IMG/VR virus record: IMGVR_UViG_3300009079_000094
Coordinates: 1 to 27,910 of that record
From: a virus
Direction: 5' to 3' (one strand)
Length of the DNA stretch: 27,910 nt
Each line of letters opens with the position of its first letter. Position 1 is the first letter of the stretch. Shown here piece by piece: positions 1 to 19,200 of the stretch. The notes beneath the pieces were generated by a model, which saw nothing but the letters and a program-made list of their open reading frames with translations, did not search any database and was not told the DNA's origin. Made by a program: the position numbers and the translations under genes.

Positions 1-229
1 TACCACCTTGAATACCATCAGTACCTTGTGGACCCTGAGGACCTTGAACACCTTGAGCGCCAGCACCTTCAGGACCATCACCACCTTGAACACCCTGTAA
101 ACCTTGAGTACCTTGAACACCTTGAGCGCCGATTCCTCCGCCGGCACCTTGTAAACCTTGAGCACCTTGGATACCAGTACCACCAGTAGCACCCTGAGGA
201 CCTGCCGAACCAGTGGCACCAATGTCACC
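1..229 (-). repeat. Collagen-like tract 6 (continues past the window edge)
   Basis: At least 75 residues of Gly-X-X follow module D. The tract opens with a less Gln-rich section (GDIGATGSAG) and includes an irregular patch GAGGGIGAQG. It is still collagen-like at base 1. Confidence 0.85.
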
Positions 230-3200
230 AGTTCGAGCAAATGTAATTGTAACATCTTCACCATTTGCGAACGATCCGTTTCCACTCACAAAGTCACAGT
301 TGACAATGAAGTATCCACCTTGGTTAACCGTTCCGCTAATAGTAAAGATCTTGAAGTCTTGTGGTGCAGACTTCTTAGTAATCTTAAAGTGACCTTTAAC
401 AGGGCTTGTACTATCATCAATAGTAAGTAAGAAAGGCTCAATGTTAACGAAGTTATCGTCACGATCATCAATGAACATTGCTGTAATGTCAGCATCAGTT
501 GTATCATTGACCTTTAACTTACCGAAGCCCGGATCAGCATTGTTTGTTGTATTGTCGAATGTGTAGTCGAATGTTACACCACCAAACGAACCATCGGCAC
601 CCTGAATACCTAAGTCACCTTGTACACCTTGTACACCCTGTACACCAGCACCGGTAAATCCTTGTAAGCCTTGAGCACCCTGAGGTCCTTGAGCACCCTG
701 CACACCAGCAGGTCCGCGTGGGATAAATGAGATTAGTGTTTCTGCTGAGTGAGATGCAGCAACCGCGGTCCAAGATGTCGCATTACCATCAACGTAATTA
801 ACGTCAAAGTAACCGTAATTCTTAGAACCTGAATCCCAAGACCAGTTTGTAACTTCGTATACGAGCCAATGGTGTCCGCCAGGTCCTGTTCCGCCGGGGC
901 CTGCACCTGCCTGAATTTTTAAATAACCTTTTACGGTACCAGGTTGATTATCAATGAAGTCTAAGAAGTCATCAATTTCTGTATCGTATTGGTCGAAAGG
1001 AACATCGTCAAGTGTTAATAGGTCAGCCAGTGTTGTGTTTGCATTATTCAGTTTCCAGTTGTTGGTGCCTGGGTCTGTTCCACCCAGTGTGTTAGAACTC
1101 CAATTCCACTTGAAGGTCATTCCACCATATTCACCTTGGTCGCCCTGGAAGCCGCGCCAACCCTGTAATCCTTGAGCACCTTGGGTACCTTGCGGTCCTT
1201 GCATACCTTGGATTGCTTCACCTTGTACGCCTTGGATACCTTGTGTACCCTGCATACCCTGAACACCTTGTGGTCCTTGCATGCCCTGGATTGCTTCACC
1301 CTGAACACCTTGGAGACCTTGCATTCCCTGAGGACCCTGTGGTCCTTGCATACCTTGAATAGCTTCGCCTTGAACACCCTGTAAGCCTTGGAGACCTTGA
1401 GTACCCTGCGGTCCTTGAGGTCCTTGGATACCTTGGATTGCTTCACCTTGTACACCCTGAAGGCCCTGTAAGCCTTGGAGACCTTGCAATCCTTGAGTAC
1501 CCTGCGTTCCTTGAACACCTTGAGCACCTTGTAAACCTTGGAGACCTTGCATTCCCTGAATACCTTGATCACCAGTTCTGACAAACGAGATTCGGAAATC
1601 AGTAGCATTAGGATAGCTTTGGCTAGGCGACATTGTATCAACGTCAATGAGATACCAACCTGAACCAGCGTTACCATTCAGAGCACCACCAGTAACCTCG
1701 AACAGGGCATAATTGTAAACGTTTGAAGCGTCTGCTAACTTTAAGTAACCCTTATTGCCTGGGTTAGTTGATGCAAAGAAATCAGCAATTAAGGCTGCAA
1801 TTTGTACACTGTCAGCATCTTCAACATCAAAGTAAAGTTGAGTAGAGTTACCGAAGACAGAATTGTTACCTTTTACAAAACCAATGCCGGGATCTGATGC
1901 TGTCGTGTCGGTAGCGTCATATGTAAATCTAAATGTAACTCCACCGTAAGCACCGGTAAAGCCTTGGGTACCTTGAGCACCCTGTAATCCTTGTGTTCCC
2001 TGAGTACCTTGAGAACCAGTTACACCTTGAGGTCCTTGTACACCCTGTAATCCTTGAACACCTTGTAGTCCCTGTGGACCTTGTACACCTTGAACGCCTT
2101 GAGGACCAAGATCACCTTGTAAACCCTGAACACCTTGTGGTCCACGGAAACCTTGGATACCTTGGTCACCTGCAATACTAAATGCAACAACCAAAGGTTG
2201 AGAAATAAACGTGCCTGGATTGCCTGGAAGATCTTCTGCAACAAAATGTTCTTTAGCAGCAGAACCAGAAACGTATGTGACATCGAGTTCCCAATATGAT
2301 CCATCATCAACCATTGTTTGAACGGTAAAGATAACGTATCTTGAAGGTTCATCGCGTCTTGTAATTTTTACGAATGCTTTATTTGCGGATGTAGACTGAG
2401 ATACAGCAGTGAGCAAAGGCTCAATGTCATTGTTATAGGTATCATTTTCGCTGATATAAAGTTTAGTTACAGCACTAAAGTCGTCAGTTGGATTTGATTG
2501 ACCGTTAACTTGGAAGAATCCGCCGGGAGGAGCAGGAAACTCTCCACTCGTGTTCATCATTCCAAAGTCTATAACACCACCTGAGTCTGTACCGTTATAT
2601 CCTTGTAAACCTAACTTACCTTGGATACCGGTGAAACCTTGCGTACCTTGAACACCTTGTGTTCCCTGAGTACCTTGAATACCCAAGTCACCTTGAATAC
2701 CTTGTGTACCCTGAACACCTTGCGGTCCACGTCTACCTTGAACACCCTGTGTTCCTTGGAAGCCACGGAAACCTTGAAGACCTTGAGTACCCTGCGCGCC
2801 CTGGAAACCACGAACACCACGATAACCCTGAACACCAGTATTACCGGTTGGTCCTTGAGTACCTTGTGGTCCTAGATCGCCTTGTAAACCTTGAATCCCT
2901 CTGAATGAACCAATGTTTATCCAAGCGGCTCCGTCATAAATCCAGAGCTCATCATCGGCTTCATCAATAACACCGTCACCGGTATTGGGAGTTGCAAATG
3001 CTGCGTTTAATGTTGCTTGAGGATCACCGCCTGAGTCAACATCTGGTACTGATCCGACAATAGTAAAGCCAGGACCATACTCACCCTGAGTACCTTGAAC
3101 ACCTTGTATGCCCGGTATACCTTGACCAACCGAAACAACTGGATCTGATCCAAATACCATGATACTAAATGCACTTGCACCAGATGGAGCGGTTGCAGCA

Positions 3201-3676: not shown

Positions 3677-4096
3677 TTAAACAACGTCATCTTCTTCTGA
3701 TTGTCCAAGTGTGAACGATAGGGTACTGTGAATCGCAAAGCTTACGGAAGCTGATGCTTGTAGTATGTCTCCAGTTTTTAGAAATTGACCGTTCAATGGC
3801 AAAGGAACTGTGTCATAAGCCGGAACAGGTAAATTTTTAACAATGTGGAAAAACTGGTTTTCTACGTTTCTATATATTTCAACATCAACAGTAACCGTGT
3901 TTGCAGTTGTGTTACACAGGAGCAATGGAGAAATAACTTCGCCAACACCCGGCTCAACAGTAGTACTACCACCAAAGACTAATTCAGGTACCTCATAGTT
4001 AGGTACATTCATTAGTTCCTTCGCTGTAGTTTCAAGTATTAAACTACTGTATACCGGTTTCGCGTCTGGCGCCTGACTGGTAGTAATTGTTGCCAT
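3677..4096 (-). CDS. Small beta-rich virion protein (139 aa), function unknown
   Basis: I do not recognise a named family. The protein is beta-rich and acidic at its end (QSEEDDVV), has no signal peptide or membrane segment, and reads like a compact beta-sandwich (TVTVDVEIYRNVENQFFHIV, then LNGQFLKTGDILQASAS). It lies 15 bases after the giant fiber stop and 42 bases before the collagen-like fiber, in the same operon. AGGA precedes the ATG. Proteins of this size between fibers of marine T4-like phages are commonly annotated only as virion structural proteins. A capping, connector or fiber-attachment role would fit the position but is inference. Confidence 0.7.
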   Translation of the reverse strand: MATITTSQAPDAKPVYSSLILETTAKELMNVPNYEVPELVFGGSTTVEPGVGEVISPLLLCNTTANTVTVDVEIYRNVENQFFHIVKNLPVPAYDTVPLPLNGQFLKTGDILQASASVSFAIHSTLSFTLGQSEEDDVV

Positions 4097-4111: not shown

Positions 4112-7100
4112 TTAAAGTGACGCTCTACTATTAGAAGCACGTCTTGCAAGTTTTCTTACAGATGATGTAAATGGTCGTCCTTCAATTCGTCCTGTACGAC
4201 CGTTAATCCTTAATCCTCTTGCAAAGTACTGGTTGTTCAATTCATCCGCACCTGACCATCTGATACGTCCACCATCTTCATTCAATACCGAAGCGATAGC
4301 AGAGATTGGCTGACCTAAGTTTCTAAAGTTCAGTGGCAATGCGTTTCTGTTAACACCTGCCGATGCACCGTTGAACTGGTGAGCAATGGATTCAACCAAC
4401 GATCCGAAGATCAATGTTTCTGGTCTTACCACGTTATCAATCAAACAATCATTAAACAATCCGGCAATCATTGCTGAGTGAGCCGCGTCAGGTGAAAGGT
4501 TACTAATCATGTAATCTCTCATTCGTTCCCATGCACCTACGAAGGAATCTAGAAGTTCAGTGTTATTAGGACCATCGTATCTCCAATCGTTGATTGTAGG
4601 ATCCCAATAATATATATCACCCTCGTAGTGACTAACCGCCATGTTAGTAGCAACGATATATGCGTGGTTTGGTTTTTGACCAGTGACCGATGCTAGAATA
4701 CCGCTACCAACAGGACCTTGTAAAGAACCTTGATACTTCAAGCCCCGAGTAGTTGAGTTGAATACTGGGAATGCATGTTGACCTTTGTAATCGAAGAACG
4801 ATGATGTAAAGGTTCTTATTGCATTCTGAGCACCAACCGCAATACTACCAGTGTAAGATGGTGAATTAACTTCTGTGCCATCCTCATACTTGAAGTCATT
4901 TGCTATTGCTTGAAGCAAGTTAGATGCATCGCGTCTAGTAAGAGGTAAGTTGATAAATCCGTATTCAGCACTTACATATCTTACGGTATCAGCAGCGAGA
5001 TTAATCTTATTCTCACCGATGATAAACTGAGCACCAGTAAACTTGTCTCCAGCATAAGCGTAATCAGGTTCTTGCTTAGCAGGTAAATACTTCGTATCTT
5101 TATTTATCTGAGTCAGATAGAATACATTTGCAAGCTTTTCAACTTTATCAGCTTCAACCTGAGTACCAAGCTCGCCTTTAGCAACCTGTCCTGCATACTT
5201 ACCGAGAACGATATCTTTACAAATTACACCAAGCTGTCTATAAGACTTAGCAGTTGCTTCACGTTGATTTTCTGGTACTCGATACTCGTTATTCCAGAAG
5301 TAGAAGTCTGCATTCCAACGAGAAGCGATGTTACCACCATAGTTCAAGTCATAGCTGAATGCATCGAGTAAGTAACCAACATCTCGGAAACACTTGGCTC
5401 GGTTATAATCAAGAGCATTAAACTCAGTGTTGATAAAGTGTACCAAGTCATTTGCTAGATGATCGACATTATCTTCGATTTGCTCTGCAGCTCCAATTAA
5501 CTCAGAGTTGACCCAAGAAAGATCAGGTCCTTCAAGCCCTGGTAGTGCATCAGTTGAATTTGCTCGAATAACATCTTCAACAATACCGATGAGAGACTGT
5601 GCAGCCGCTGCTTCGGTAGCTGTTCCCGGTGTTCCGAGGAACTGTTGATAAGGACCGTTAGCAAGTGAATCAGCATCAGCCGTTACGAATGTATGAGCAA
5701 CTTGGCCTGTTCCGCCCGTTCCTACATTCATCGTAATCGTAGTACCCTCTACAGCAGTAATTGGGCATCCTCTGTTATAGTATGGGTGATGTGATTCTGG
5801 TGACCTATGATTCTGGTTACCAGAGCCCATGTTGCAAGAGAATACAATACTTTCAGGGGCAAACCATACAAGATCTCCAACCTTAAAGTTGTTGCTTCCG
5901 ATCGTTGCGGTAAATACTCCAGATGCTGGATCGTAAGTTGCATTAGTTGGAGTGTAAGTTGTAAACTGCGATACATCATTTTCTTGAACGACTTGTGACA
6001 TTACAAGACCGAGGTAATCGTAAATGTCTGCAGTTTGCTTACGGGTATCTGCTGGAAGTACACTTACTCCATTTTCGAAGTAGATTCCTGCAGATTGTCT
6101 AGAAGCAAAGTTTCCGCCATATTGAACGTCGTGTGATACAGCATCAATTAAGTAACCGATGTCTCTTCGACATTTCGCTCCTGGGAAGCCTAATCCATTT
6201 TGAACTGCGGTCAAGTATGTAAGTACATTATCTGCTAGAGCAGGTACAGCATCTTCAACCGCTTCCTTACCAGCAATAACTGTTGGTGATTGCCATGTTT
6301 GTAATGGATCGACTCGAGTTGGGAATGTAGCATAAGATCCAGTCTCAACAACATTGGTAATAATCATACCTAATGCTTTTGCTCGAGTAGCGATCATTGG
6401 GTTACCAGCAACATTACCGAGTTCTTGTCGATATGGATTTGAAACCTTAATGATAGCATTTGCTTTAGCACTTACAAATGAGTGAGCCTGAGTGTATCCA
6501 CCGGCAGGTTCAACATTAACTGTAAATGTAGTTGCAGTAACAGCAGATACTCGAAGTGGCTTACGATAAACAGGATCTGTTACTCGTGGATGCGAGATCT
6601 CAACGGCTGGGTTATTACACTCAAATGTAATACCTTCCTTTTCGATAACAATGTAATCACCAAGACTTAATGTGTGTGGTGCCAAAGTAGTTGTTACCAT
6701 TTCACCAGATACTGGATCATAAGCAACTGTACTTACACCGAATCGATCAAGTGGTCGTAATGGAATTTCTTGACGTTGTACAATCTTCTCGACCAACTCA
6801 GACATGTGAGTAAAGGCAAACTTAGAAGCTTCTCTCTGTTCGAGTGGCAGAGTATTAACTGCGTTATCAAAGTAGAGTTTAGCATTACCTAAGGTTGCTG
6901 CATTACCACCATACTGAATATCATGTGAGATTCCATCCAAGATGTACTTGGTATCTCTTCGACATTTGTCTTCGCTATAAGGAAGAATCTCGAAGTACTC
7001 AGCAAGGTGAGCATAAAGACCATCTTGTACGCTTGGGATTACAGCTTCCAACTCAGTGAATGCGGTCTTGAATTCATCGACATAAGCATTAGATGCACTG

Positions 7101-10100
7101 TTTGGTTCTTCCAAAGCAGGCATACTTTCAAGTGAGTTATTTGATATTGCATTAGCAACTACAGAGAATAGTCTCTCAACTTCATTACCAACCGCTAGAC
7201 CAGCACTACCTGAGTCTCTATTCTGTGTAGCACTGTTTGAGCTAGACTTAAGTCCCAGTCCATCGACATCTTGATCTTGTACGATGTACTTAGCAACCTC
7301 TGCAATGTGGATGAATGTTTCAGCGGTCTTAGCTTGTTGATCAACCGGTAATACACTTACAGCATTCTCGAAGTAAAGTTTAGCATTTCCTCGAACTGCT
7401 GAGTTACCGCTGTGGTAAGTGTCAAAGATTACACAATCTGTTAAGTAACCAACGTCCCTCTCACACTTAGCAACATCATAAACATATGAAGGATAGTTGT
7501 CAGCAAGGTAAGCAGTGATTTCAGCCTGCATGAATGCTTTGTTATTCTTTAACTGTTCCCGAGCATTAAGACCATTTAGACCACGAGAGCTTGATGGACC
7601 GAATACAATATTATCAGCGGCTGTTTCACCGTTGGTCATAATGTCGATAAGCTCATTGAATGAATTCAGAGTCTTTGTCTTAGCAGTAGGATCGGTTACA
7701 GCGGCTACCGCAGCATCTCGAGTATATTCAATTGCAGAAACAGTTTCTGTTAATTGTTCAGTGATTACGTTATCAGCTAATTTCGTACCAATTCGATAAG
7801 CTAATCCATTGAATACCGCATTAAAGTTTGAATCGGTTAGAACATCTCGCTTAACTGCATTAATCAGAATTGCCATATCTCTGTAGCACTTTTCACCATC
7901 GAAGGTGTAGTAACGCTCTCTCAGATATTCAACAACGTCTTCAGCAATAAAGTCCTTGTTCATTTGGATTTGCTTACGTGCCACAGTCCTATTAGGATCA
8001 ACTGTTGGGTTGGTAGCTTTAGGAATGTAATCAGCAGTCTTATCATCTACAAGGGCAGCAACTGCTTGGATCAAGTCATGTACCGCAGTACCGGTAGCAG
8101 CAGGAGCGGCTGTACCACTTGTATCCTGAGCTGGTACATTAGCAGATGAAGGAGTGATTGCAGTTTCTGTTACGACCTTTTCAGCAACATCTGCTAATCT
8201 CTCGAATGCCAATCGAGTTGGAACTCGTTGTATTTCTGGTAAAACATTAATAAGTGTACGTAGACCAGAAACGTTAGCAGTTGGATACTCTTCAGCAGTA
8301 TCTCTCATTTGTCCTTTTACTTCAAGAGGAAGAACGTTAACGCTTCGTAGTTGCTCGTAATCACCGGATGTTTCATCATCACGTGAGAAGTAGAATGCAG
8401 CAGACTCAATAGTAGAAGCATTGCCACCATACTCAATATCCTTAGATACCGAATCGATGATATGACCAATATCTCTGAAACACTTAGCCTTGTTATATGG
8501 AAGACCGTTGAATACGTTGATGATGTGTTCAATAACATCAGTTTGAAGGTTTTCAGTCTTACCATCCATTCTAGCAACGGCAGTCTCGAATCCAGCTTCA
8601 ATGGTAGGTTCAACATAAGAAGGTAACCAATCAAGTGTGTCAGCTTCAATTGTCTTAGTGACAACCGTAACAAGATCACGACCTTTATTACCTAGGATGA
8701 TTCCTAAATCTCCACCTGAAACATCCTGTGTTTGAACGTTTCCTGTTGTAGGTGTAATTGCAATTGCTCGAATAACCGAGTAGCAAACTTCAGCAATGTA
8801 TTCCCAAGTTCGAACGGTTGGAACAACTTGATCTTCGGGTAATACAGCCATTGCGTTTTCAAAGTAAAGTCTTGCAAAGTTAACCGCACCAGCATTTGAT
8901 CCGTGTTGAATATCCCAAGAGATTGCATCAATCATGTATCCAGTATCACGAAGACACTTAGCAGTATCATAAGTAAGATTTGGATAAGTGTCAGCGATAT
9001 GTGCTACTGTTTCAGCTTGGATAAACGTCTTGTTTGTCTGTAGTGCAACTCGAGCATTAGCATGAGCTACATCAACTGCATTAGTACCCCAAACAATCGT
9101 ATCAGCATTACCTGAACCGTTTGATAAGATGTCAATGATTTCGTCGAAAGCATCGTTGCTTCGAGTTAAAGCAGTACCTGTAAGTTCTTCACTAACCTCT
9201 GACTTGAGGTAGTTGATTGCACCAACAGTTTCTGTGAGCTGGTCATTAACGACCTTGTCTGCACCTACGGTTCCAATTCGATATCCCAATCCCATGTAAA
9301 TTGCAGGATAGTTAGAACCAGTAGCAACCGAACGTCTTGCTGCATCAACAATAAATCCAGTATCTCGAGAACACTTATCACCATCAAATACGAAGTATTG
9401 AGTATCAAGGTATTCCATGATCTCAGTCTGAATCATGTTTCGATTTGCTTGGAGTTGCTCTCTAGCCAACTGCCCGGCTGTATTGGTTGTTACCTTTATG
9501 ACCGCGTCATTAGCCACACTCACGAAGGTGTGAGTCCCTCCAGATCCTGTACCTACATTGACAGTAATATTGTTTCCTGCAACGTTTGTAATCTCCATTG
9601 CGGTCTTGTAATTACCATCTCCAACTCGTGGATATTGATGCTCAGTAGCATTACTATCCAGAGAACAGGTGTATGTAAAGCTATATGGTGTAAACTCAAT
9701 ACGATCACCAATTGCCAAATCATGGTCAGGAATAGTAACAACACTGACTCCAGTTGCAGGATCGTATGTAGCAGTTGTTGGTGTGTAGTAGTTCAAGTAA
9801 GATGATGGATCAGTCCAAACGAGTGGATCAGCAATGATAGCACCAACATCAGCACTTACAAATGTATGAACACCGGTATAACCTCCACCAGCACCGACAT
9901 TCATAGTAATTGACGTCGTAGTTACCGCGGTAACTAATACTGGTTTCTTATAGAATGGGTGGTGTTGCTCTGGACTTGCATGATCTTCTGGACCATTACC
10001 GTTGTCACAACTAAATACTACACTCTCTGGCTTGATTTCTACATAATCACCAACCTGGACGTTGTGCTTTCCAATTGAAGCAACGAAGACACCAGTGTTA

Positions 10101-13100
10101 GGATCGTAAGTAGCATTTTGTGGAGTGTAAGTACCTGAGTAACCAAACTCTTTAACACAGTCAGCGGTAGCACTCACAAATGTGTGTACTTTATCTGTTC
10201 CTGCAGGACCAATGTAGCAAGTAAATGTAGTAGAAGATGTCGCAGTAATCTTGATCGGCTTACGATAAACTGGATCAGTTGGCCGTGGATGAGTAATTGA
10301 AACTGGGTTACCACCTTCATCTGGGCATGTAAACGTAATGCAAGAATCTGCAAGTACAATTTCTTGGCCGGGCTGAAGATCATGATCACCAATTGTGCTA
10401 ATCATCATTCCTGTTACAGGATCATAAGTTACACCAGTTGGTGTATATGTCTTTCCGGTATTATTAACAATGTCAACAAGTTGACGGAACGAGAGATCTG
10501 CTTGAGTAGATTCAGCATTACGTCCGACCGAAGTAACTTCAGAGATAGCATTAGCAACAGATGATACAAATGTATGTGGGAACAAGCCTGTTCCACCAGT
10601 ACCTACATTCATAGTAATTGTAGTTGCATCAACCTCGGTAACCAAACATGGCTTACGATAGAATGGGTGGTGAGCTGCTGGTGAAGTATGGTTAGTAGCA
10701 CCACTTCCCATGTCACAACTCATTGTAATACCGTTATCTGCAAACCAGACATAATCGCCAGGTTCTAAACTGTGAGTTCCTACCGTTGCAACAAAGATTC
10801 CAGTATTAGGATCGTAAGTAGCATTGGATGGAGTAAACTGAGCACCAAACTCAACACCAACATTGTCGGTAATTTCTTGTCGTGTATTAAACTGGAGATC
10901 TTCAATTGCTGCAACAGTCTGTGGCAGTTCATTAAGTATGGTTGACTCACCAGTTTTCTGACGATAAGCGATACCAGCTTGAATTGCGTTATAGTTACCA
11001 CCGGTAACCATGTCACGCTGTACGGCAGGTAAGATGTAATCTGTTACATCCCTACGGCAAGCGATGTTATCGTAATGGAAGTAGTTAGTATCGATATAAT
11101 TCAATACCGAATCTTGCATAAACTCTCGGTTAGCTTGAAGTAGCTTACGAGAATCTCGTCGAGCTTCCAAAATACCAGCGTCATCAGAGAATGTAATTTC
11201 AGCACCAAGTACCGAGATAGCATTTGGTAAAGCTGATACGAAGGTGTGGGCTTTATCGACTGTTGCTACACCAGCATTAATTGTAATAGTGGTTGCACCA
11301 ACATCTGTAATTTCACATGGTGTGTTGTAGCATGGATCTGGACGACCTGCTCCACCCAATGCTCGTGGATGTGCGATTTGACCAATGCTTCCATCACCTT
11401 CACAAGCAAGAAGAATACTTTCTGGCTTGAATAGTATCTTATCACCTGGTTCTAAATTATGAGTACCGATGGTCATTATCATAACACCGGTAATGTGATC
11501 GTAATCTACACCAGTAGGAGTAAATGTAGCACCGTTAGCTCGTAGTTGCGTAATAATTTCATCGAAAGCACCATCGACTCGAGCTGAACTAATGTAAGAG
11601 TTCGCATCAAGAATTTCGTTAGTACGATCTTTCAGGAATCGGTAAGCACCAATTGTTTCATTTCGTTGCTCACCTATAACCTTAGATGCAGATGCCATGT
11701 AGTATGCATTACCGGCGGTTACTGCATTATAGTTTGTGTCAAGAAGCATGTCATTCTTAACTGCTGGCATGATGTAGTCAGTAGTATCTCTACGGCATGC
11801 AACACTATCATATGAGTAGAACTGATCGTTATTGTCGATCCAGTTGGTCAACTCAGTTTGAATGAATGTTCTATTATCTTGGAGAAGTTCCCGAGCTGCA
11901 GTTTGTTCAACAGATGTTGGTACCCAAGTAATTGGGTTAATGTTTTCTTCACCGTATTGAAGAACATTGTACAGTTCTTGCATCGAGGTATTTGCTCGTG
12001 CTACAATTGCTGGATCACCTTCGAAGAGATCTTGCACTCGAGCTTGCATGTACTCGTTAGCACCAAGGGTTTCTTCAAGCTGCTCGCCTGGGACTACATA
12101 TGAAATTGGTGAACGGTAAGAAATACCTGCTAATCGACCCCAGTAGTTACTATCAAGAGCAATGTCATATCCAAGACCATCGAGGATAATCTTAGAATCT
12201 CGCTCACACTTATCAGCATCATATCCTTTATAACCCAGTCCGCCCGAAGCAGTATTTGCAGTTATGAAGTCGACCATGTCGTCGATGATAAGTGGCTCAT
12301 TTGCTTCGATAGTGTCGGCAAATGCTGTGTTACCAAATATGTTAGCAGCGCTAGTAGACTTAGGAGCAAAGAACCTTGTGGTACCTTTTGCTCGCATTGA
12401 GATGTCACCGAACTGAGTACCTGAGTTGTTCAATGTCATTTGTCCGCCGTTCAAGGCGTAGAATGCAATACGTACGAAGATTGACAGAGAACCAATACCG
12501 TTTACACCAGCACCATCCCGTGCTACATAACCGATACCGTTCTGAGTACGAGGTGTGAAACCAAAACATAGTACATATGTATATAGTGAATCTGGATCTA
12601 GAACTCTTCGGTCTGCAAGTACACAACCACCACCTCGACCTACCAACCTGTTAGGGAAGTCATCAATACCGATCGACTCAACAGTACCTGTTCCGCCTGA
12701 TTCACATTGTACGGTATCACCTACCGCAAAACCTCGATTGTTCTTAAGGTTTCGTACTCGAATCTTACGATTTTGGTTGACGTCACGATCAATACCCTGA
12801 GCTGCATCCATGCTGTCATCCCAAGAGAGATAACCAACTGCACCAGATGAGAATGTAACTTCATCACCTTCTTGCCACAACGACAATGCAGGGTTAGCAT
12901 TTTGTCCTGTCATGCCAACTTCAAGTGTAAACTCTCTACCAAGGTCAGCTAGTGTACCTTTGGTGTTGTATGGGTTAAGAGGTGGTTCAACATCAGAACG
13001 AACAAAGTTTGAAAGCTGAGTTGAGTCTCTCAAGTATGGAGAACGAAGTAACTTAGCGCCTGGTCGATAAGCAACCGCGAATCCACCTTCTGGGAAATCG

Positions 13101-14809
13101 AAGTTATCGATCTTCCAGTTCATGTAAGAGAAGCCCTGTACATAACAACCAGAACCTACTAGAATCGCATTGTTATTTTCATAACCTGGAAGTGCTTCAA
13201 TAACCGTGGCATACTGACCAGATGTAGAAGTAACCGAACAATCATCCGGCAACATCAAGTTACCCTTGGTGTAATATGTTCCTGGCCCTGCAGAAATATG
13301 AACTGAGTTGTTTAAAGCATTTCGATCAAATGATCCACCAGCCTTTTCTAAACAAAGCTCAAACGCTCGTTCCATACTTTGAACTGGCTGTAACAGAGTT
13401 CCTGGGTTGTCATCATTACCTGATGCAGCATCAACGTGAACTTTAAGAGCCTGTGCAGTACTCTTCGATACTTCGTCAAATAATTGACTGTAAGAAATTT
13501 GTTCTGTTTGACCTGTCTTTTCGTTCTTAATAGCAAAGTAGCTATCTTGATCAAGAGGTGGCTCAAACTTATCATTGAGATCCATGTCAAAGTCGACAAG
13601 AGTAGAATCCTTAACGATACCATTGTCGAACGTTGACTTAGTAACATCACCACTGTCGAACGTTGATCTTGTTTGACTAAAGCCATCAGCACTTGAACTC
13701 GTGATGGTCATGTTCTGAGCTACTACATTATCCATCGTTCCTGTAAAGGATGAATTAACAATTTCAGAATTCTGAATTGTACCTTGGTCAATTGTAGTAT
13801 TGGTAAAGACGTTGTTATTGCCGGTACCATCAGAGAAGTCTGAGTTAATGATTTCAACATTATCAAGATCAGACTGAGTAATTGTAACGTTGTTTGCTGT
13901 TGAATCTTCAATTGCGCCATCTGTAAACGTTGAATTAGCAATTTCTAAATTATCAGCAGTGCTATCGGTGATTGTAGAATCATCAATAGTAGAATTTGTA
14001 AGTACTACATTATTACCAGTACCGTTATTAAATTCAGAATCAGTTATAACAACGTTGCTTGCAACCGAATCTTCAATTTCACCGTTCGTAAAGACAGAAG
14101 TATCAATGGTAGATCTGGTAAGTACTACGTTGTTGCCGGTTCCGTCATTAAACTGAGAATCAGTAATAACTACGTTATTTGCGGTAGAGTCGTTTAACTC
14201 AGAATTTGTAAGTACTACATTGTTACCGGTAGAGTCAAAGATCTCTCCATCAGTAAACTCGGAATTTGTTATTACAATATTGTTAGCAGTGGAATCTTCA
14301 ATCGACCCATCATTAAATTCAGAATTTGTTATTACAACATTGTTTGCTGTACTATCATTAAGTTCTGAATTCGTGAGTACAACATTATTACCGGTTGAAT
14401 CATTAATCTCGCCGTCGTTGAACTCAGACTGAGTAATGATTACGTTGTTTGCTGTAGAGTCGTTAATCTCACCGATATTAAATTCGGATGAGGTAATGAT
14501 TAAGTTATTAGCATCCGAGTTCGTAATGACAGTATCGTCAATCGTCCCTCGTTCAAAGTTAGTATCTTCGATGTCAGAATTGTCGATAATGACTCGATCA
14601 ATGCGCAGGTCGTGGATGAACGCGCCGGAAATGTCTCCGCCGGTAATCGTGATCCGATCAAATACCTCGTACTGAATGGCCTGTACGAGTTCTTTACGAG
14701 TGATGTTTGATGTGCCATCATCACCTTGTACCAGATTGACAATAACAAATAGATCTTCTGATCTAGTATTATCACCGGTAATCGGAGGTAATTCTGAAAT
14801 CTTCGCCAT
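4112..14809 (-). CDS. Giant modular tail fiber/adhesin (3,565 aa)
   Basis: This very large fiber-like protein is probably a receptor-contact appendage. Modules in order: an N-terminal anchor-like segment (MAKISELPPITGDNTRSEDL; about 1-46); a beta-solenoid of NNVVITNSEF-like repeats (about 50-400); a pectate-lyase-like region (about 453-830) opening with VHVDAASGNDDNPGT; then a long array of helical C-x-RD modules (about 12 copies, 860-3300) mixed with 'YDPxTG...HTFVSA' beta modules (7 copies: five within about 1093-1771, one near 2690-2790, one near 2946-3048). The conserved-looking C-terminal domain (about 3355-3565) contains GGRIRWSGADELNNQYFARG and ends in a basic tail. There is no signal peptide, membrane segment or visible catalytic motif. 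A TATAAATA promoter and AAGGAAAGG site precede the start. Similar modules occur singly in marine T4-like phage fibers as I recall; the copy number here is exceptional. Host target unknown. Confidence 0.85.
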   Translation of the reverse strand: MAKISELPPITGDNTRSEDLFVIVNLVQGDDGTSNITRKELVQAIQYEVFDRITITGGDISGAFIHDLRIDRVIIDNSDIEDTNFERGTIDDTVITNSDANNLIITSSEFNIGEINDSTANNVIITQSEFNDGEINDSTGNNVVLTNSELNDSTANNVVITNSEFNDGSIEDSTANNIVITNSEFTDGEIFDSTGNNVVLTNSELNDSTANNVVITDSQFNDGTGNNVVLTRSTIDTSVFTNGEIEDSVASNVVITDSEFNNGTGNNVVLTNSTIDDSTITDSTADNLEIANSTFTDGAIEDSTANNVTITQSDLDNVEIINSDFSDGTGNNNVFTNTTIDQGTIQNSEIVNSSFTGTMDNVVAQNMTITSSSADGFSQTRSTFDSGDVTKSTFDNGIVKDSTLVDFDMDLNDKFEPPLDQDSYFAIKNEKTGQTEQISYSQLFDEVSKSTAQALKVHVDAASGNDDNPGTLLQPVQSMERAFELCLEKAGGSFDRNALNNSVHISAGPGTYYTKGNLMLPDDCSVTSTSGQYATVIEALPGYENNNAILVGSGCYVQGFSYMNWKIDNFDFPEGGFAVAYRPGAKLLRSPYLRDSTQLSNFVRSDVEPPLNPYNTKGTLADLGREFTLEVGMTGQNANPALSLWQEGDEVTFSSGAVGYLSWDDSMDAAQGIDRDVNQNRKIRVRNLKNNRGFAVGDTVQCESGGTGTVESIGIDDFPNRLVGRGGGCVLADRRVLDPDSLYTYVLCFGFTPRTQNGIGYVARDGAGVNGIGSLSIFVRIAFYALNGGQMTLNNSGTQFGDISMRAKGTTRFFAPKSTSAANIFGNTAFADTIEANEPLIIDDMVDFITANTASGGLGYKGYDADKCERDSKIILDGLGYDIALDSNYWGRLAGISYRSPISYVVPGEQLEETLGANEYMQARVQDLFEGDPAIVARANTSMQELYNVLQYGEENINPITWVPTSVEQTAARELLQDNRTFIQTELTNWIDNNDQFYSYDSVACRRDTTDYIMPAVKNDMLLDTNYNAVTAGNAYYMASASKVIGEQRNETIGAYRFLKDRTNEILDANSYISSARVDGAFDEIITQLRANGATFTPTGVDYDHITGVMIMTIGTHNLEPGDKILFKPESILLACEGDGSIGQIAHPRALGGAGRPDPCYNTPCEITDVGATTITINAGVATVDKAHTFVSALPNAISVLGAEITFSDDAGILEARRDSRKLLQANREFMQDSVLNYIDTNYFHYDNIACRRDVTDYILPAVQRDMVTGGNYNAIQAGIAYRQKTGESTILNELPQTVAAIEDLQFNTRQEITDNVGVEFGAQFTPSNATYDPNTGIFVATVGTHSLEPGDYVWFADNGITMSCDMGSGATNHTSPAAHHPFYRKPCLVTEVDATTITMNVGTGGTGLFPHTFVSSVANAISEVTSVGRNAESTQADLSFRQLVDIVNNTGKTYTPTGVTYDPVTGMMISTIGDHDLQPGQEIVLADSCITFTCPDEGGNPVSITHPRPTDPVYRKPIKITATSSTTFTCYIGPAGTDKVHTFVSATADCVKEFGYSGTYTPQNATYDPNTGVFVASIGKHNVQVGDYVEIKPESVVFSCDNGNGPEDHASPEQHHPFYKKPVLVTAVTTTSITMNVGAGGGYTGVHTFVSADVGAIIADPLVWTDPSSYLNYYTPTTATYDPATGVSVVTIPDHDLAIGDRIEFTPYSFTYTCSLDSNATEHQYPRVGDGNYKTAMEITNVAGNNITVNVGTGSGGTHTFVSVANDAVIKVTTNTAGQLAREQLQANRNMIQTEIMEYLDTQYFVFDGDKCSRDTGFIVDAARRSVATGSNYPAIYMGLGYRIGTVGADKVVNDQLTETVGAINYLKSEVSEELTGTALTRSNDAFDEIIDILSNGSGNADTIVWGTNAVDVAHANARVALQTNKTFIQAETVAHIADTYPNLTYDTAKCLRDTGYMIDAISWDIQHGSNAGAVNFARLYFENAMAVLPEDQVVPTVRTWEYIAEVCYSVIRAIAITPTTGNVQTQDVSGGDLGIILGNKGRDLVTVVTKTIEADTLDWLPSYVEPTIEAGFETAVARMDGKTENLQTDVIEHIINVFNGLPYNKAKCFRDIGHIIDSVSKDIEYGGNASTIESAAFYFSRDDETSGDYEQLRSVNVLPLEVKGQMRDTAEEYPTANVSGLRTLINVLPEIQRVPTRLAFERLADVAEKVVTETAITPSSANVPAQDTSGTAAPAATGTAVHDLIQAVAALVDDKTADYIPKATNPTVDPNRTVARKQIQMNKDFIAEDVVEYLRERYYTFDGEKCYRDMAILINAVKRDVLTDSNFNAVFNGLAYRIGTKLADNVITEQLTETVSAIEYTRDAAVAAVTDPTAKTKTLNSFNELIDIMTNGETAADNIVFGPSSSRGLNGLNAREQLKNNKAFMQAEITAYLADNYPSYVYDVAKCERDVGYLTDCVIFDTYHSGNSAVRGNAKLYFENAVSVLPVDQQAKTAETFIHIAEVAKYIVQDQDVDGLGLKSSSNSATQNRDSGSAGLAVGNEVERLFSVVANAISNNSLESMPALEEPNSASNAYVDEFKTAFTELEAVIPSVQDGLYAHLAEYFEILPYSEDKCRRDTKYILDGISHDIQYGGNAATLGNAKLYFDNAVNTLPLEQREASKFAFTHMSELVEKIVQRQEIPLRPLDRFGVSTVAYDPVSGEMVTTTLAPHTLSLGDYIVIEKEGITFECNNPAVEISHPRVTDPVYRKPLRVSAVTATTFTVNVEPAGGYTQAHSFVSAKANAIIKVSNPYRQELGNVAGNPMIATRAKALGMIITNVVETGSYATFPTRVDPLQTWQSPTVIAGKEAVEDAVPALADNVLTYLTAVQNGLGFPGAKCRRDIGYLIDAVSHDVQYGGNFASRQSAGIYFENGVSVLPADTRKQTADIYDYLGLVMSQVVQENDVSQFTTYTPTNATYDPASGVFTATIGSNNFKVGDLVWFAPESIVFSCNMGSGNQNHRSPESHHPYYNRGCPITAVEGTTITMNVGTGGTGQVAHTFVTADADSLANGPYQQFLGTPGTATEAAAAQSLIGIVEDVIRANSTDALPGLEGPDLSWVNSELIGAAEQIEDNVDHLANDLVHFINTEFNALDYNRAKCFRDVGYLLDAFSYDLNYGGNIASRWNADFYFWNNEYRVPENQREATAKSYRQLGVICKDIVLGKYAGQVAKGELGTQVEADKVEKLANVFYLTQINKDTKYLPAKQEPDYAYAGDKFTGAQFIIGENKINLAADTVRYVSAEYGFINLPLTRRDASNLLQAIANDFKYEDGTEVNSPSYTGSIAVGAQNAIRTFTSSFFDYKGQHAFPVFNSTTRGLKYQGSLQGPVGSGILASVTGQKPNHAYIVATNMAVSHYEGDIYYWDPTINDWRYDGPNNTELLDSFVGAWERMRDYMISNLSPDAAHSAMIAGLFNDCLIDNVVRPETLIFGSLVESIAHQFNGASAGVNRNALPLNFRNLGQPISAIASVLNEDGGRIRWSGADELNNQYFARGLRINGRTGRIEGRPFTSSVRKLARRASNSRASL
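5665..5970 (-). repeat. 'YDPxTG' beta module copy 7 (giant fiber)
   Basis: This copy encodes TYDPASGVFTATIGS, VGDLVWFAPESIVFSC, an ESHHPYYNRGC segment and VAHTFVTADA. It belongs to the HHPF/HHPY subtype, like copies 2 and 4. Confidence 0.8.
6440..6760 (-). repeat. 'YDPxTG' beta module copy 6 (giant fiber)
   Basis: This isolated copy encodes AYDPVSGEMVTT, LSLGDYIVIEKEGITFEC, SHPRVTDPVYRKP and AHSFVSA. It belongs to the HPR-DPVYRKP subtype and is separated from the main cluster by more than 2.7 kb of C-x-RD modules. Confidence 0.8.
9495..11530 (-). repeat. Five consecutive 'YDPxTG' beta modules in the giant fiber, with two C-x-RD modules between copies 1 and 2 and after copy 5 elsewhere
   Basis: Five copies of a roughly 100-residue module lie at about 11530-11215, 10850-10555, 10460-10150, 10135-9830 and 9795-9495. 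Each opens with YTPxxATYDPxTG, continues with GxHxLxxGD and a strand ending in Ser/Thr-Cys, then His/Pro-rich residues, and closes with TTITMNVG and HTFVSA. Copies 3 to 5 are nearly back to back; one C-x-RD module lies between copies 1 and 2. Copies 6 and 7 lie near 6760-6440 and 5970-5665. Confidence 0.85.
13720..14660 (-). repeat. DNA repeats encoding a beta-solenoid (NNVVITNSEF-type)
   Basis: Irregular tandem repeats encode units such as DSTANNVVITNSEFNDG and GTGNNVVLTNS in residues about 50-365 of the giant fiber. The hydrophobic residues alternate in pentapeptide-like steps, expected of a right-handed beta-helix. Unit length varies because 'NDGEIEDSTA' and 'STID' segments are present in some turns and absent in others. 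Confidence 0.85.
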
Positions 14810-14862: not shown

Positions 14863-16065
14863 CTATTCGCTTGGTAAGCGACTTTCTAAAACTTCTACTT
14901 TTTCTTTCAATTCTTTAATTGCTTCCAATAGTAGAGGGATAAGGCCATTGTAGTTCACGCCTTTATACACTCCATCATTTTTTTGTATATCATAAATAAC
15001 TTCAGGCAGGACTCTTTCAACTTCCTGTGCTATAACACCGGATTCGACAGTATCACTACCAATTTTATTAAATGTGTACCCATTCACCGACATAAGTTTG
15101 TCTAGGCTGTTGGGTATAATCATTAAATTTTCTTTTAATCGTTGATCAGATGCGGTAACAACGTTGCCCGATGCAGTAATGTTACCAGTAACCGTTAGGT
15201 TAGTATCGATTTGAGCGGTTCCTGAAACGTCAAGATCACCCAGAACATTAAACCCTCCAGTAGTCCACTCAGCAGTAGAGTACTCTGATCCTGCAAGTGT
15301 AACTCGTAGTTGTCCAACAGGATTCGCACCGTCGAGAGTTCCTCTAACATGTGCGGCATAGCCCGAACCTTCGAAACTAATCTTTCGTTGTTGTATATCT
15401 TTTGGCGTATTTAATGTAGTAATATCAGTACTAGCGTTATAGTTAACACTTACATTAGCAGGACCAACCCCAGGTTGAAGTGCACTACCGACTCGAGCAT
15501 TTGTGAAGTAAAGATTAGTGGAACCTTCAGGAACGTCATCGGTATCAGAGAATTGAGATGCACCAACAAATGAGGCCGCAGTAACAGTTCCAGTACATAC
15601 AATACTAGGAATTGTTAATACACCTGCAGTTGAAAGTTCAAACTTAACAGGAGCGACGCCAGTGTCGATAATAAAGTTTGAGTCGGCTTGAGTATCATCA
15701 ATACCCACATCCCAACTAAAGCTTCCATCGGTGAAACGAACTTGGCCACCAGATGCAACGTTATTAAATATGGCGGCAGGATTAGCAGCAGATGTAATCT
15801 CAACGGGAGATCCGAATGCAACCGTGCCGGAACTTGATGCAGAGTTAATAAGATCAGTTTTAAGATCACCACCGTTACCTGCATCTACAACAAGATTATC
15901 AGCTGTAAAAATACCGGTTAGTGTAGCGTCTCCGTCTGTTGTATCCCCAGAGCCTGACGCAGTCATTACTTCGTCTTTGAATATGCCGACCATTTCATTA
16001 GTCTTAGCAAGCCAATTCTCAAACGTCTGACTGGTAGTTACTTCGGTTATTAGTGGTTTTGCCAT
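14863..16065 (-). CDS. Tail fiber with C-terminal S74 intramolecular chaperone domain (400 aa)
   Basis: This is a fiber or tailspike protein that ends in a peptidase S74 (ICA/CIMCD) domain, which drives trimer folding and then cuts itself off. The N terminus (MAKPLITEVTTSQTFENWLA) is a probable attachment segment. Residues about 40-300 are beta-rich, with a DTDDVPEGSTNLYFTNARV block (174-192) that I recall from marine phage fibers. The S74 domain begins near 300: TASDQRLKEN gives the catalytic Ser306 and Lys311, with expected cleavage between Ala305 and Ser306. Then come GVIAQEVERVLPEVI (343-357), NYNGLIPLLLEAIKEL and a C-terminal coiled coil (EKVEVLESRL). The start lies one base after the stop of the 60-aa gene. 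Cleavage would release a fragment of about 95 residues. Confidence 0.9.
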   Translation of the reverse strand: MAKPLITEVTTSQTFENWLAKTNEMVGIFKDEVMTASGSGDTTDGDATLTGIFTADNLVVDAGNGGDLKTDLINSASSSGTVAFGSPVEITSAANPAAIFNNVASGGQVRFTDGSFSWDVGIDDTQADSNFIIDTGVAPVKFELSTAGVLTIPSIVCTGTVTAASFVGASQFSDTDDVPEGSTNLYFTNARVGSALQPGVGPANVSVNYNASTDITTLNTPKDIQQRKISFEGSGYAAHVRGTLDGANPVGQLRVTLAGSEYSTAEWTTGGFNVLGDLDVSGTAQIDTNLTVTGNITASGNVVTASDQRLKENLMIIPNSLDKLMSVNGYTFNKIGSDTVESGVIAQEVERVLPEVIYDIQKNDGVYKGVNYNGLIPLLLEAIKELKEKVEVLESRLPSE

Positions 16066-16262: not shown

Positions 16263-19200
16263 CTAGGATAACGCTATGGCCCGGTAATCGTTTAATGTGG
16301 GAGCGTTGTGGATGTTAGGTGATAGCATATCAATGCGGATGGCAAACTTTCTAAATCCAGAGAAAGTACCAGCATTGCTAGTATATTGTAGTAGTCCATT
16401 AACATCCTTATCCGACTCAGCTACCTTATACTTGTACTCTTTAAAATCACCAATGTTAATATTTGAAGAGAATAAATTTACACCTTCAAACATTTCTAAT
16501 TCTACCCATTCCATCTCACCAAAGCTCTGACCATCGTAAACATTCTGAGGCTTAATGTAAACCTTAATGTCTGTACCGTTAGGGCGATATGCGCTGATAG
16601 TTACTTCCATATCTTCGGCGTCAAGATCTTCAGCCAGTTCTACGCGGTTTGAAATAAACACCGCATCAGGATCAGATGCATCATTATTGATGTTATATTG
16701 ATATGCGAATAGTTTAGCAATTTCGATATCAACCACAGGTGTAGATGTTACGTTACCGCTGTTTTCTAAGTTGACTGTAAAGTTGAATGCTTTAGTTTCA
16801 TTAACATCGTTAGATTTACTATATACCATCACACCCTTTTCTGGGAAGTGAATGTTACCATTAAACTTTAAGCCTTTAGTGTAAGTACTGCTTACGTCTG
16901 CTGGTGAAACGAATGTTCCATCAAGAGTTGTAGTTGCAACAGTATCTTCTGTTTTCTGAATCATTGCTTGAACATAGCTTAGATTAATATCATCAACCGT
17001 TGTAATGTCAGCAGTCCTGCCACTGTCGAGTCCAACAATCTTAGTTGTTGCATCTGAAGGATTACTTGCTTGGAATACTCGTGATGGCTTAGCTGAACTG
17101 TGCTCGAGGTTCATAGTAAATGGTCTTAGTACATTATAGTAACTTATGTTACCTACCACCACTGCTGCACAAGTTCCTCCACTTACCGCAAACGATGTTG
17201 GCTTATTCACAGTAAGTTGCGATGCGGAATCGACACTGATAACTTTAAAGATATCTTTACGAGTAGCACCAGCATCATTTATTAGAATAAAGTCATTCTC
17301 GTTAAACGTATCATCGAGATCTGTACCGGTAATGATTGCTGTATTTATTGCCATACTTACAGTTGCAGATGTTGAGCCTGCAAAAGCCTTTTGCTGGTAA
17401 ACAAGCTCACCGGTATTGAATCGGCCAGTAACATCGCTGATAGTCAAGAACTCACAATCATTTGCTGTCATTGTAATTGAACCAGCAGACTCGTTAAAGT
17501 TATGTCGATAAAGCTTGAACTTTAAATCTTCGTCTTGGTATGACTTCCAAGCACTGTTGTTTGTTGAACTAAATAGAACACCATCACCCCAGTCCTGTAC
17601 AATAGCAGTTCCTTGAGTCGCTCCAGGCGTAAGATCATTTTGTCCGATTTGAGATATGAACAGCAAGTAGTTAGGATCGTTAGCATCTGCTTGTAATACT
17701 AATGCATATTCTTTTTCTACATCCAATCTTACAGGAGCTTCAAAAGTAAATGTAGTTGGAACCGAAGCGTCATCAGATGCAGCCCCTACCAAATCAGAAG
17801 GTAGTTTACGAGACTTCGAGAATGGAATGATTTCGTTTGTTGGGAAACCATTAACAACTTCTCGTATCTGACAGGTGATACCATTCTCTGTACTAACTCG
17901 CTTGAAGAATACATCAACCTGAGATAAGAATACTGTATTGCTTCCAGCACCCATACCTTTCTTAACAAAGAATGTTTGAGCAAGTGGATCACGACCTTCT
18001 GGTCTTCGAACAACATTTCGAACAGTGGTTGTCTTAGCTACATCAGCATCTGGCTTACGAGTTGTTTGAGTAAGAGATGTACGCTCCATTGAGAAGTTAT
18101 AAGCACGGTATGTAACAAAACCTGTAGATGTTGCAGCTGAATTAATATTGTCGTAAGAATCAACATCCACAATATCTAATACGCGATCACCGACGAAGAA
18201 TGTTTCACCAGGGATTGTAAAGACTGCACGTAATACACCATTTGCATCAGTAGATACTGCATCACCGTATTCGCCTAATCGCTCAACTAGGTTAACATCG
18301 TCAACAGCACTTCCTGGGATTACATTAGCATTAACGTCTGTCTTGTCGAAGAAGAAATAATGTTGAGTGTTTGGACGAAGACCTGACATATAGACCTTAA
18401 CATCCCTGCCAGCAATAAATGGCTTGAACTGTACATTACTAACAAAGTCTCCAACAGGAACTGAAACGCTAGTATTCTCAGGCATTGAGATATCGATATC
18501 ACGCTGAGTGGTAACTTCTCGGAATGTGCCGGGATTGTATCCATACCGACGGTTACGATAACGTGGGTGGTGCCATCCGCCGTGCCACCATCTGTTCCAC
18601 CACCAATCACCACCCCAATATTCGCCAGGAACATATTCGTAACTGGTATCAGTAAGTGGTAGTACTTCTTGAATGTTATCAATGAGTTCGCTAAATGCTC
18701 CAGTCATATCAACATCAATTGTCACTGGATTGACCGTAGTGTCATAGTTCACGTCGTAAGGAGGTGAAATGTAACCGTTACCTTTGTACTGGTAGAAGTT
18801 GTTTGCACAAGTTCTAAAACCAGTTGCTGAAGGTTGGTCTATGAAAGCGACATTTGAATCTCGACCTAGTGTACCTACCTTAGCACTTGTGGCTGAAGGG
18901 AATAAGGAAGCGCCGGAGCTTGTCTTATATTTAAGATCAATAGGGAATTGCTTGACTGAAGGAGTAAGTACCTTACGACCATGCGGAATCGCTGCACTAA
19001 ATAAAGGATCTTTAATGTTTGAAAGAGAAATATCATTGAATGGATCTACAATAAATCCATTTTTAAATCTGTTAAGTCCATTCTCATCGAGTACTCGCAT
19101 ATTTTGTGTATCAGATTCAAGCTGATTCAATGAGATGTAATAAGACATATTGTCGATTCTCTTTTCGAGAGAATGCATGTCTTTCATAGTAAAGTTTTTA

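Follow-up and report, generated by a model that had tools for sequence, protein, structure and literature searches.

Phycobiliproteins are the light-harvesting pigment proteins of cyanobacteria. The motif CXRD is frequent among them, its cysteine being the site of covalent bilin attachment, and globins that carry this motif outside phycobilisomes bind bilins without lyases, as passages of PMC10151467 describe. Genes for making and attaching bilins are also known from phages that infect cyanobacteria and other marine bacteria, and a 2024 paper asks what purpose they serve (PMC11480375); the proposals set out in passages of that paper and of PMC10452541 center on the upkeep of host light harvesting. 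One possible partner of the phage bilin genes named in a section of the 2024 paper is a bilin-binding globin, and the term 'tail fiber' occurs nowhere in its main text. Here, we analyzed a DNA stretch of 27,910 nucleotides (hereafter, the window), which is IMG/VR virus record IMGVR_UViG_3300009079_000094, and specifically P0001, a giant fibre-type protein of 3,565 amino acids encoded on its minus strand (window 4112..14809; an open reading frame (ORF) with an ATG start and PHROG matches), whose annotation and gene neighbourhood suggest that it is a fibre of the virion. P0001 is probably the fibre of an uncultured T4-like marine myovirus lineage in which 11 tandem phycobiliprotein-like modules keep a Cys-x-Arg-Asp motif whose cysteine holds, or ancestrally held, a bilin, beta-barrels being optional additions. 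The phycobiliprotein likeness of these modules is the main result of this study; it is absent from the preliminary description of this DNA, and no report of a structural phage protein with a phycobiliprotein-like domain was found in the open-licence papers searched.

Profile hidden Markov models (HMMs) detected 11 strong C-x-RD modules in P0001 (i-Evalue 8.3e-34 or better), all on the minus strand: C1 (residues 817-930, window 12020..12361), C2 (958-1069, 11603..11938), C3 (1203-1315, 10865..11203), C4 (1768-1877, 9179..9508), C5 (1902-2014, 8768..9106), C6 (2066-2174, 8288..8614), C7 (2259-2373, 7691..8035), C8 (2398-2513, 7271..7618), C9 (2571-2679, 6773..7099), C10 (2830-2943, 5981..6322) and C11 (3091-3202, 5204..5539). 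A weak and degenerate twelfth copy follows (residues 3251-3309, window 4883..5059, minus strand; i-Evalue 6e-4), and seven YDP-type beta modules (Y1 to Y7) are interspersed, in agreement with the approximately 12 and seven copies, around 19 modules in total, that had been given in the preliminary description. Since the module HMMs derive from segments of P0001 itself that had been picked by motif, the independent evidence for repeats comes from a tiled self-BLASTP, in which 64 distinct off-diagonal pairs were obtained at E<=1e-3 and none in each of 10 residue shuffles; the self-comparison that had been proposed as a check thus revealed the repeats. Without tiling, neither P0001 nor any of 20 shuffles gave an off-diagonal pair, an artefact that arises from the hit of the full-length protein to itself. 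The kinship with marine T4-like phage proteins, stated in the preliminary description, was also borne out: P0001 matched PHROGs 701, 5342 and 4527 (E 4.8e-120, 7.9e-110 and 6.5e-64, in 11, 13 and 10 stretches, respectively), and modules were shared with 341 phage records named after Synechococcus (263), Cyanophage (49), Prochlorococcus (22) or Marine (7).

The fold of the C module was approached with two AlphaFold2 models derived from 35-row alignments, one covering residues 420-1320 (C1-C3) and the other C9-C11. Among the best 50 VIA-align rows of the C9-C11 model, 49 were phycobiliprotein entries, the remaining one being titled 'Bacterial fluorescent protein'; they aligned 123-153 residues with Z of 13.2-15.4, a root mean square deviation (rmsd) of 2.2-7.2 and an identity of 10-16%, and Z>=8 was reached by 208 of 999 chains. 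Three places of the model were aligned (about 7..263, 324..676 and 537..676). The first of these ranges spans module Y6, which therefore precedes the last helix of the C9 fold, so that in the model C9 and the helix after Y6 together make up one phycobiliprotein-like fold. With Foldseek, a phycoerythrin headed the rows for the same model (probability 1.00, E 0.011), and phycobiliprotein entries made up 42 of the 50 rows listed. In a search of viral structure predictions, 45 rows passed E<=0.001, and tail and structural proteins of cyanophages were among them. On this one model, the predicted fold of the C module looks like the helical fold of phycobiliproteins and globins. The best 50 VIA-align rows of the C1-C3 model were mostly matches to Y1, and its helices matched flavohemoglobins and SLC9C1 and no phycobiliprotein; as the parts outside 665-786 were barely probed, this absence carries no inference. 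A heme-type globin identity was set aside, given that no histidine is found in the 20 most conserved columns of the module.

Profile comparisons involved the same protein family. The sole match of P0001 at E<=0.01 among the 18,950 NCBIfam models was C-phycocyanin alpha (TIGR01338, E 8.8e-5), in which the motif region of C11 (residues 3129-3159) fell on profile positions 72-102. When the module profile was searched against the PDB with hmmsearch, phycocyanins occupied 14 of 15 rows (E 0.077-0.81), and the C-x-RD of the module lay on the CxRD (CARD) of 1f99; a phmmer search of the PDB with the whole of P0001 gave nothing at E<=0.1. For hhalign, the reference consisted of 82 alpha-type chains from 79 cyanobacterial loci. 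The pooled C modules of P0001 and its relatives (window family) reached 88% against it (pairwise E 3.2e-6), and single C positions 3.4-92.3%; the value against a beta-type alignment was 6%. The controls were 60 column shuffles (at most 2.7%), a reversed profile (0.3%) and five other parts of P0001 (at most 0.2%). The values were 95.5% (E 1.4e-8) for 57 modules taken from 13 cyanophage loci and at most 2.4% for 40 column shuffles of these. In the PDB and hhalign comparisons alike, C-x-RD fell on the bilin-attachment motif. We therefore consider it very probable that the C module is remotely homologous to phycobiliproteins or to bilin-binding globins.

Relatives of P0001 were retrieved as 75 loci by means of peptide patterns of the protein, which favour similar architectures; a complete protein was available for 53 of them, and dereplication at 95% identity left 35. 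Across 379 window-family modules, cysteine and aspartate were present in all 379 and arginine in 376, the full C-x-R-D being thus found in 376; the three exceptions all lie at C7 and retain Cys and Asp. The 57 cyanophage modules were less uniform (50 have the Cys, 52 the Asp, 33 the Arg and 32 the complete motif), and in syn9 none of three modules has the full motif. Because the C modules keep the pigment-attachment cysteine, fibres of the P0001 type may carry, or may once have carried, bilins. Building on what is directly supported, namely the modules, their order and orthology, the insertion sites, the conservation of the motif and the fold similarity of one predicted model, a layout of the virion fibre can be envisaged. 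The C-module array would form a long helical rod whose two ends would be capped by the N-terminal beta-solenoid and by the nearly invariant C-terminal domain, the beta-barrel Y modules, optional at fixed loops between or inside C modules, would vary the display of the rod to the host surface, and each module's cysteine would hold a covalent linear tetrapyrrole (bilin) in the virion, or would have done so in an ancestor.

That a bilin is bound in this family is a tentative proposal, which we would place slightly on the doubtful side, and a competing explanation merits serious consideration, although we would not call it probable either: the C modules may descend from a phycobiliprotein or a bilin-binding globin and may now be purely structural rod segments without bilin, with Cys, Arg and Asp retained because they aid packing or cap a helix. 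The cyanophage modules argue for it, since 25 of the 57 do without the full motif and their profile similarity nonetheless persists. The window family argues against it, as the cysteine is retained at 379 of 379 copies while the positions have diverged to a mean identity of 28%, and a free cysteine at every copy would, in our judgement, be unusual for packing alone.

Gene content bears on the same question. In favour of bilin binding, heme oxygenase and ferredoxin-dependent bilin reductase genes lie adjacent to each other in two of the 17 longer relatives, G007 (169.7 kb, positions 37908-39149) and G008 (77 kb, positions 4446-5686), where the reductases, of the PcyA/PcyX type, match the PcyA model at E about 4e-27, under its cut-off (loci L170-L173). 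The remaining 15, which include records of 156 and 137 kb, yielded neither enzyme, and the search for CpeT was negative in all 17; both results favour the purely structural explanation and speak against a bilin-loaded fibre. The reverse search weighs on the same side. It covered 25 records, mostly short fragments, that is, 24 of 94 reductase loci, chosen mainly by length, and Pelagibacter phage Mosig; C modules were present in two of these, G007 and G008, both of which came originally from the C-module set, and in none of the other 23, which are mostly fragments. Mosig, which is complete, has both enzymes, and no C module was found in it, nor was any found in the complete Sinorhizobium phage phiM7; both were searched in the one of two batches that had no positive controls, G001 and G004 being the controls of the other batch and both detected there. 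In the records searched, bilin genes and C modules did not strictly go together. Moreover, psbA was found in none of nine longer relatives, none of which is known to be complete, so the hosts may make no phycobilins at all.

A further candidate source of bilin loading is CpeT, a T-type lyase that likely serves host phycobiliproteins, according to a passage of PMC10452541. The cpeT gene occurs in 66 cyanophage records, and its position was compared by eye with that of the C modules in the matches listed for 60 of the 148 C-module records and 60 of the 66 cpeT records. Of the 17 named cyanophages among the matches listed for both genes, 14 have cpeT within about 5 kb of a C-module gene or hit (S-PM2, S-RIM44, Syn1, S-RIM32, ACG-2014j, S-RSM4, S-CAM4, ACG-2014e, ACG-2014i, ACG-2014h, S-H9-1, S-CAM3, S-WAM2 and Sf-CH1b); the two lay far apart in P-HM2 and S-SCSM2R, and the one hit listed for Sf-CH11 was also far. 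This proximity speaks for bilin binding; as these phages are related, the 14 are not independent cases. Ten C-bearing cyanophages (S-RIM2, S-SZBM1, ACG-2014g, S-RIM50, Syn33, S-RIM12, P-TIM40, Syn10, syn9 and S-H38) had no cpeT among the matches listed, a further point against bilin loading; a review passage does ascribe cpeT to syn9.

A stronger version of the proposal would have virions carry covalent bilins along their fibres, self-made with heme oxygenase and a PcyX/PcyA-type reductase in some phages and loaded by CpeT in some cyanophages, the array being light-responsive or photoprotective; we regard this version, and a light-related function in general, as rather improbable. Passages of PMC7112961 describe adsorption of P-HM2 as modelled to be strongly light-dependent, with hardly any in the dark, and that of P-SSP7 as lacking such a dependence. 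Two CxRD modules were found in gp7 of P-HM2, and no C-module hit was obtained in P-SSP7 (44,970 of its 45,176 bases searched). This contrast involves two phages that differ in much else, and proves nothing. S-PM2 is reportedly among the light-dependent phages in the work of Jia et al. of 2010.

Less likely still is convergence, that is, an unrelated helical bundle that came to be globin-like by chance and happens to carry C-x-R-D. Several results leave room for it and tell against our interpretation. The AlphaFold2 models are middling (mean pLDDT of 58.2 and 63.9), no Foldseek row from the PDB reached E 0.001 for either model, and identity in the structural rows is low, as given above. For mostly helical models, a best Z of 14 in VIA-align is typical and rank 50 is at 6 (up to 13), and the observed 15.4 and 13.2 are thus only a little higher; these scores alone are not decisive for that reason, while the uniformity of the rows and the register of the motif add weight to them. 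Family cut-offs were missed both for TIGR01338 (22.6 bits versus 269.45) and for Pfam Phycobilisome (PF00502; 15.0 bits versus 22.2, E 0.024), and C1-C3 alone gave 3.4-51.8% at best in hhalign. The window-family signal depends on the motif, as it fell to 0.6% when the four motif columns were masked, and a wider mask reduced the cyanophage modules to 2.8%. Nevertheless, the cyanophage modules still gave 50.5% with CxRD masked, and the 25 of them that lack CxRD gave 91.5%; in addition, fold, motif and motif position all coincide, and the only NCBIfam match among all models is C-phycocyanin alpha. Homology to phycobiliproteins or bilin-binding globins accordingly remains the preferred reading.

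The order of the modules was compared across the 35 dereplicated relatives, in 32 of which C1 to C11 are present in order. L052 and L059 lack C7-C8 and L058 lacks C4-C5, and these three proteins also lack any Y module; module loss was taken from HMM counts, given that the alignment split modules in Y-less proteins. In the per-site counts, the minimum length of a hit was 70 residues for Y and 80 for C, and inclusion of partial hits gives 10, 10 and 9 C modules in L052, L058 and L059, respectively. C modules at the same position of different proteins shared a mean identity of 60.7% (375 sampled pairs), versus a mean of 28.0% and a maximum of 65% for different positions within one protein (1,868 pairs), and a tree of 382 C modules required 14 position-label changes for 12 labels, a raw count without a shuffled-label comparison. 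Y modules are hosted by six gaps, after C2, C3, C5, C6, C9 and C10, and appear as in-frame insertions in short loops when P0001 is aligned with five Y-poor or Y-less relatives; in a tree of 217 of them, 16 label changes were counted by gap (six sites) against 201 by protein, again as raw counts without shuffled labels. Within P0001, C4-C5-C6 and C7-C8-C9 (residues 1768-2680) resemble two copies of a higher-order triplet, and residues 1801-1950 and 2296-2447 are 45% identical in the tiled self-BLASTP.

Given the constant C order, the orthology by position and the grouping of Y modules by site, the duplication looks old: judging from these sequence comparisons, an old and stable C array appears to have later acquired and shed Y modules at fixed sites, and to have lost a C pair in three of the 35 proteins. 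The length, taken in the preliminary description as a sign of growth by internal duplication, is nothing exceptional, for cultured cyanophages carry proteins of 3,496 to 8,573 amino acids with these modules, the ORFs of S-WAM2, S-SCSM2R and P-RSM6 measuring 14,280, 15,519 and 25,722 nt. The earlier view that both modules were duplicated internally, with the fibre growing very long or multi-armed, is therefore the least likely of all, for although the repeats are genuine and the triplet likeness lends it something, it is contradicted by a C number and order kept in 32 of 35 proteins, by orthology by position and by Y modules that group by site and not by protein.

The Y modules of P0001 (all on the minus strand) are Y1 (residues 1093-1200, window 11210..11533), Y2 (1322-1425, 10535..10846), Y3 (1452-1555, 10145..10456), Y4 (1558-1663, 9821..10138), Y5 (1671-1781, 9467..9799), Y6 (2688-2798, 6416..6748), whose insertion point precedes the last helix of the C9 fold, and Y7 (2949-3060, 5630..5965); all were found by HMM, with support from structural alignment for Y1 and from the model for Y6, C9, C10 and Y7. 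They are beta-rich in the AlphaFold2 models, with block pLDDT up to 89 for Y6, and all of 41 copies share the residues Y11, G16, C45, P55 and H90. Y1 aligned with the FCCH domain of E1, with tail proteins of phages T1 and FCWL1 and with phage endosialidase barrels, in tied and middling rows (Z about 7-8, about 75-82 residues). Pfam thresholds were missed, with 2 of 41 members hitting End_beta_barrel (best E 0.0077) and 1 of 41 hitting E1_FCCH (E 0.095), and the Y profile retrieved nothing from the PDB at E<=1. From the insertion pattern, the Y modules might serve as variable surface decoration.

With regard to the remaining parts of P0001 (minus strand), the beta-solenoid that had been proposed for the N-terminus is supported, as a pentapeptide-like one (residues about 66-404, window 13598..14614), Pfam Pentapeptide_4 scoring 45.1 bits against a cut-off of 38 and self-repeat pairs falling in the same part. 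The conserved region that follows (residues 440-815, window 12365..13492) had been labelled pectate-lyase-like, a label that was not confirmed: a Pfam search gave no match, its profile retrieved from the PDB a single irrelevant row (E 0.29), residues 440-820 had no match in phage records at E<=1e-5, and long stretches lie below pLDDT 50 in the AlphaFold2 model. A tail fibre of Agrobacterium phage 7-7-1 aligns with residues 432-540 only (VIA-align Z 8.5, 84 residues, rmsd 3.8). At the other end, the last 100 residues or so (window 4115..4417) are almost unchanged among the 35 relatives despite their differing middles. A weak HMM match to the C-terminal region occurs mid-protein in S-RIM32 and S-RIM44.

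The neighbours of P0001 in the 27,910-base record are T4-like baseplate and fibre genes. They comprise a protein with an S74 chaperone (14863-16065), a DUF4815 protein matching phage 'VrlC' proteins (16263-21728), and two genes with PHROG matches, the one at 21744-23372 to phrog_438 ('baseplate wedge subunit') and the one at 25863-27629 to phrog_677 ('baseplate wedge tail fiber protein connector'). Downstream of the P0001 gene lies a collagen-like (QGxQGx) fibre, at least 1,211 amino acids long and cut by the contig end (2-3634, minus strand), in which tandem repeats of 9 to 78 bp are numerous. Between the two, a protein of 139 amino acids (3677-4096, minus strand) has phrog_1276 as its sole PHROG match (E 0.0075), and a Y module has a match to this family as well. 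In the contig L011/G001, whose fibre matches P0001 at 100%, the terminase is closest to those of Sinorhizobium phages phiM12 and phiN3 (59%), and the DUF4815 protein of the window is likewise closest to Sinorhizobium phages (about 32%). On account of these neighbours, of both affinities and of the lack of psbA in the nine relatives, the lineage is T4-like and perhaps not that of a cyanophage.

If the fibre is indeed a tandem array of phycobiliprotein-like modules with the attachment cysteine intact, phage bilin genes would have an alternative target within the virion, in phages whose hosts may lack antennae, and the known range of bilin-binding globins would be wider. The fibre would also offer a physical candidate, and a possible mechanism, for the light-dependent adsorption of some cyanophages. 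Even without a bilin, a phycobiliprotein-like fold used as a repeated fibre module would be, as far as is known, a new structural element of phage fibres.

In comparison with phycobiliproteins (PF00502; TIGR01338), the C modules share the predicted fold and have CxRD in register, and they differ in being tandem parts of a protein of 3,565 amino acids, in having beta-barrels inserted, in scoring under the family cut-offs and in that their bilin is putative. The bilin biosynthesis-associated globins (BBAGs; Rockwell et al. 2023, PMC10151467), as described in part of that work, are CXRD globins outside phycobilisomes with lyase-free bilin binding, and in this the C-module motif is like theirs; however, they owe their name to a genetic association with heme oxygenase and bilin reductase, whereas the C modules are repeated domains of a phage protein. 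The gene pairs of G007 and G008 resemble the hemO-pcyX(-alaS) cassettes of aquatic phages presented in sections of PMC11480375. As for the Y modules, the FCCH domain of ubiquitin E1 and the endosialidase barrels are comparable in their beta-barrel alignment, with tied and middling Z and no family threshold reached.

Among the closest known counterparts are the giant cyanophage proteins, annotated as 'short tail fiber' in S-PM2 and Syn1 and as 'baseplate wedge initiator' in P-HM2 (gp7) and grouped in PHROGs 701, 5342 and 4527. Two side observations concern them. The protein of P-RSM6 (HQ634193.1, 103907-129628; locus L005), annotated as hypothetical, is predicted to have 8,573 amino acids, with 20 Y and six or seven C modules in the part examined; and in S-PM2 (L274, 16194-21021), the annotated fibre ORF of 11.3 kb oddly encloses 16 annotated tRNA genes on its own strand. 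These proteins share the C modules with P0001 (99.6% in a C-to-C hhalign comparison), and many share the Y modules. They differ from it in that 2-8 C copies were found per locus, some loci being cut, in that the full CxRD is kept in 32 of 57 modules, and in that the C-terminal 362 amino acids of P0001 have no counterpart by tblastn at E<=1e-5 among 50,697 phage records.

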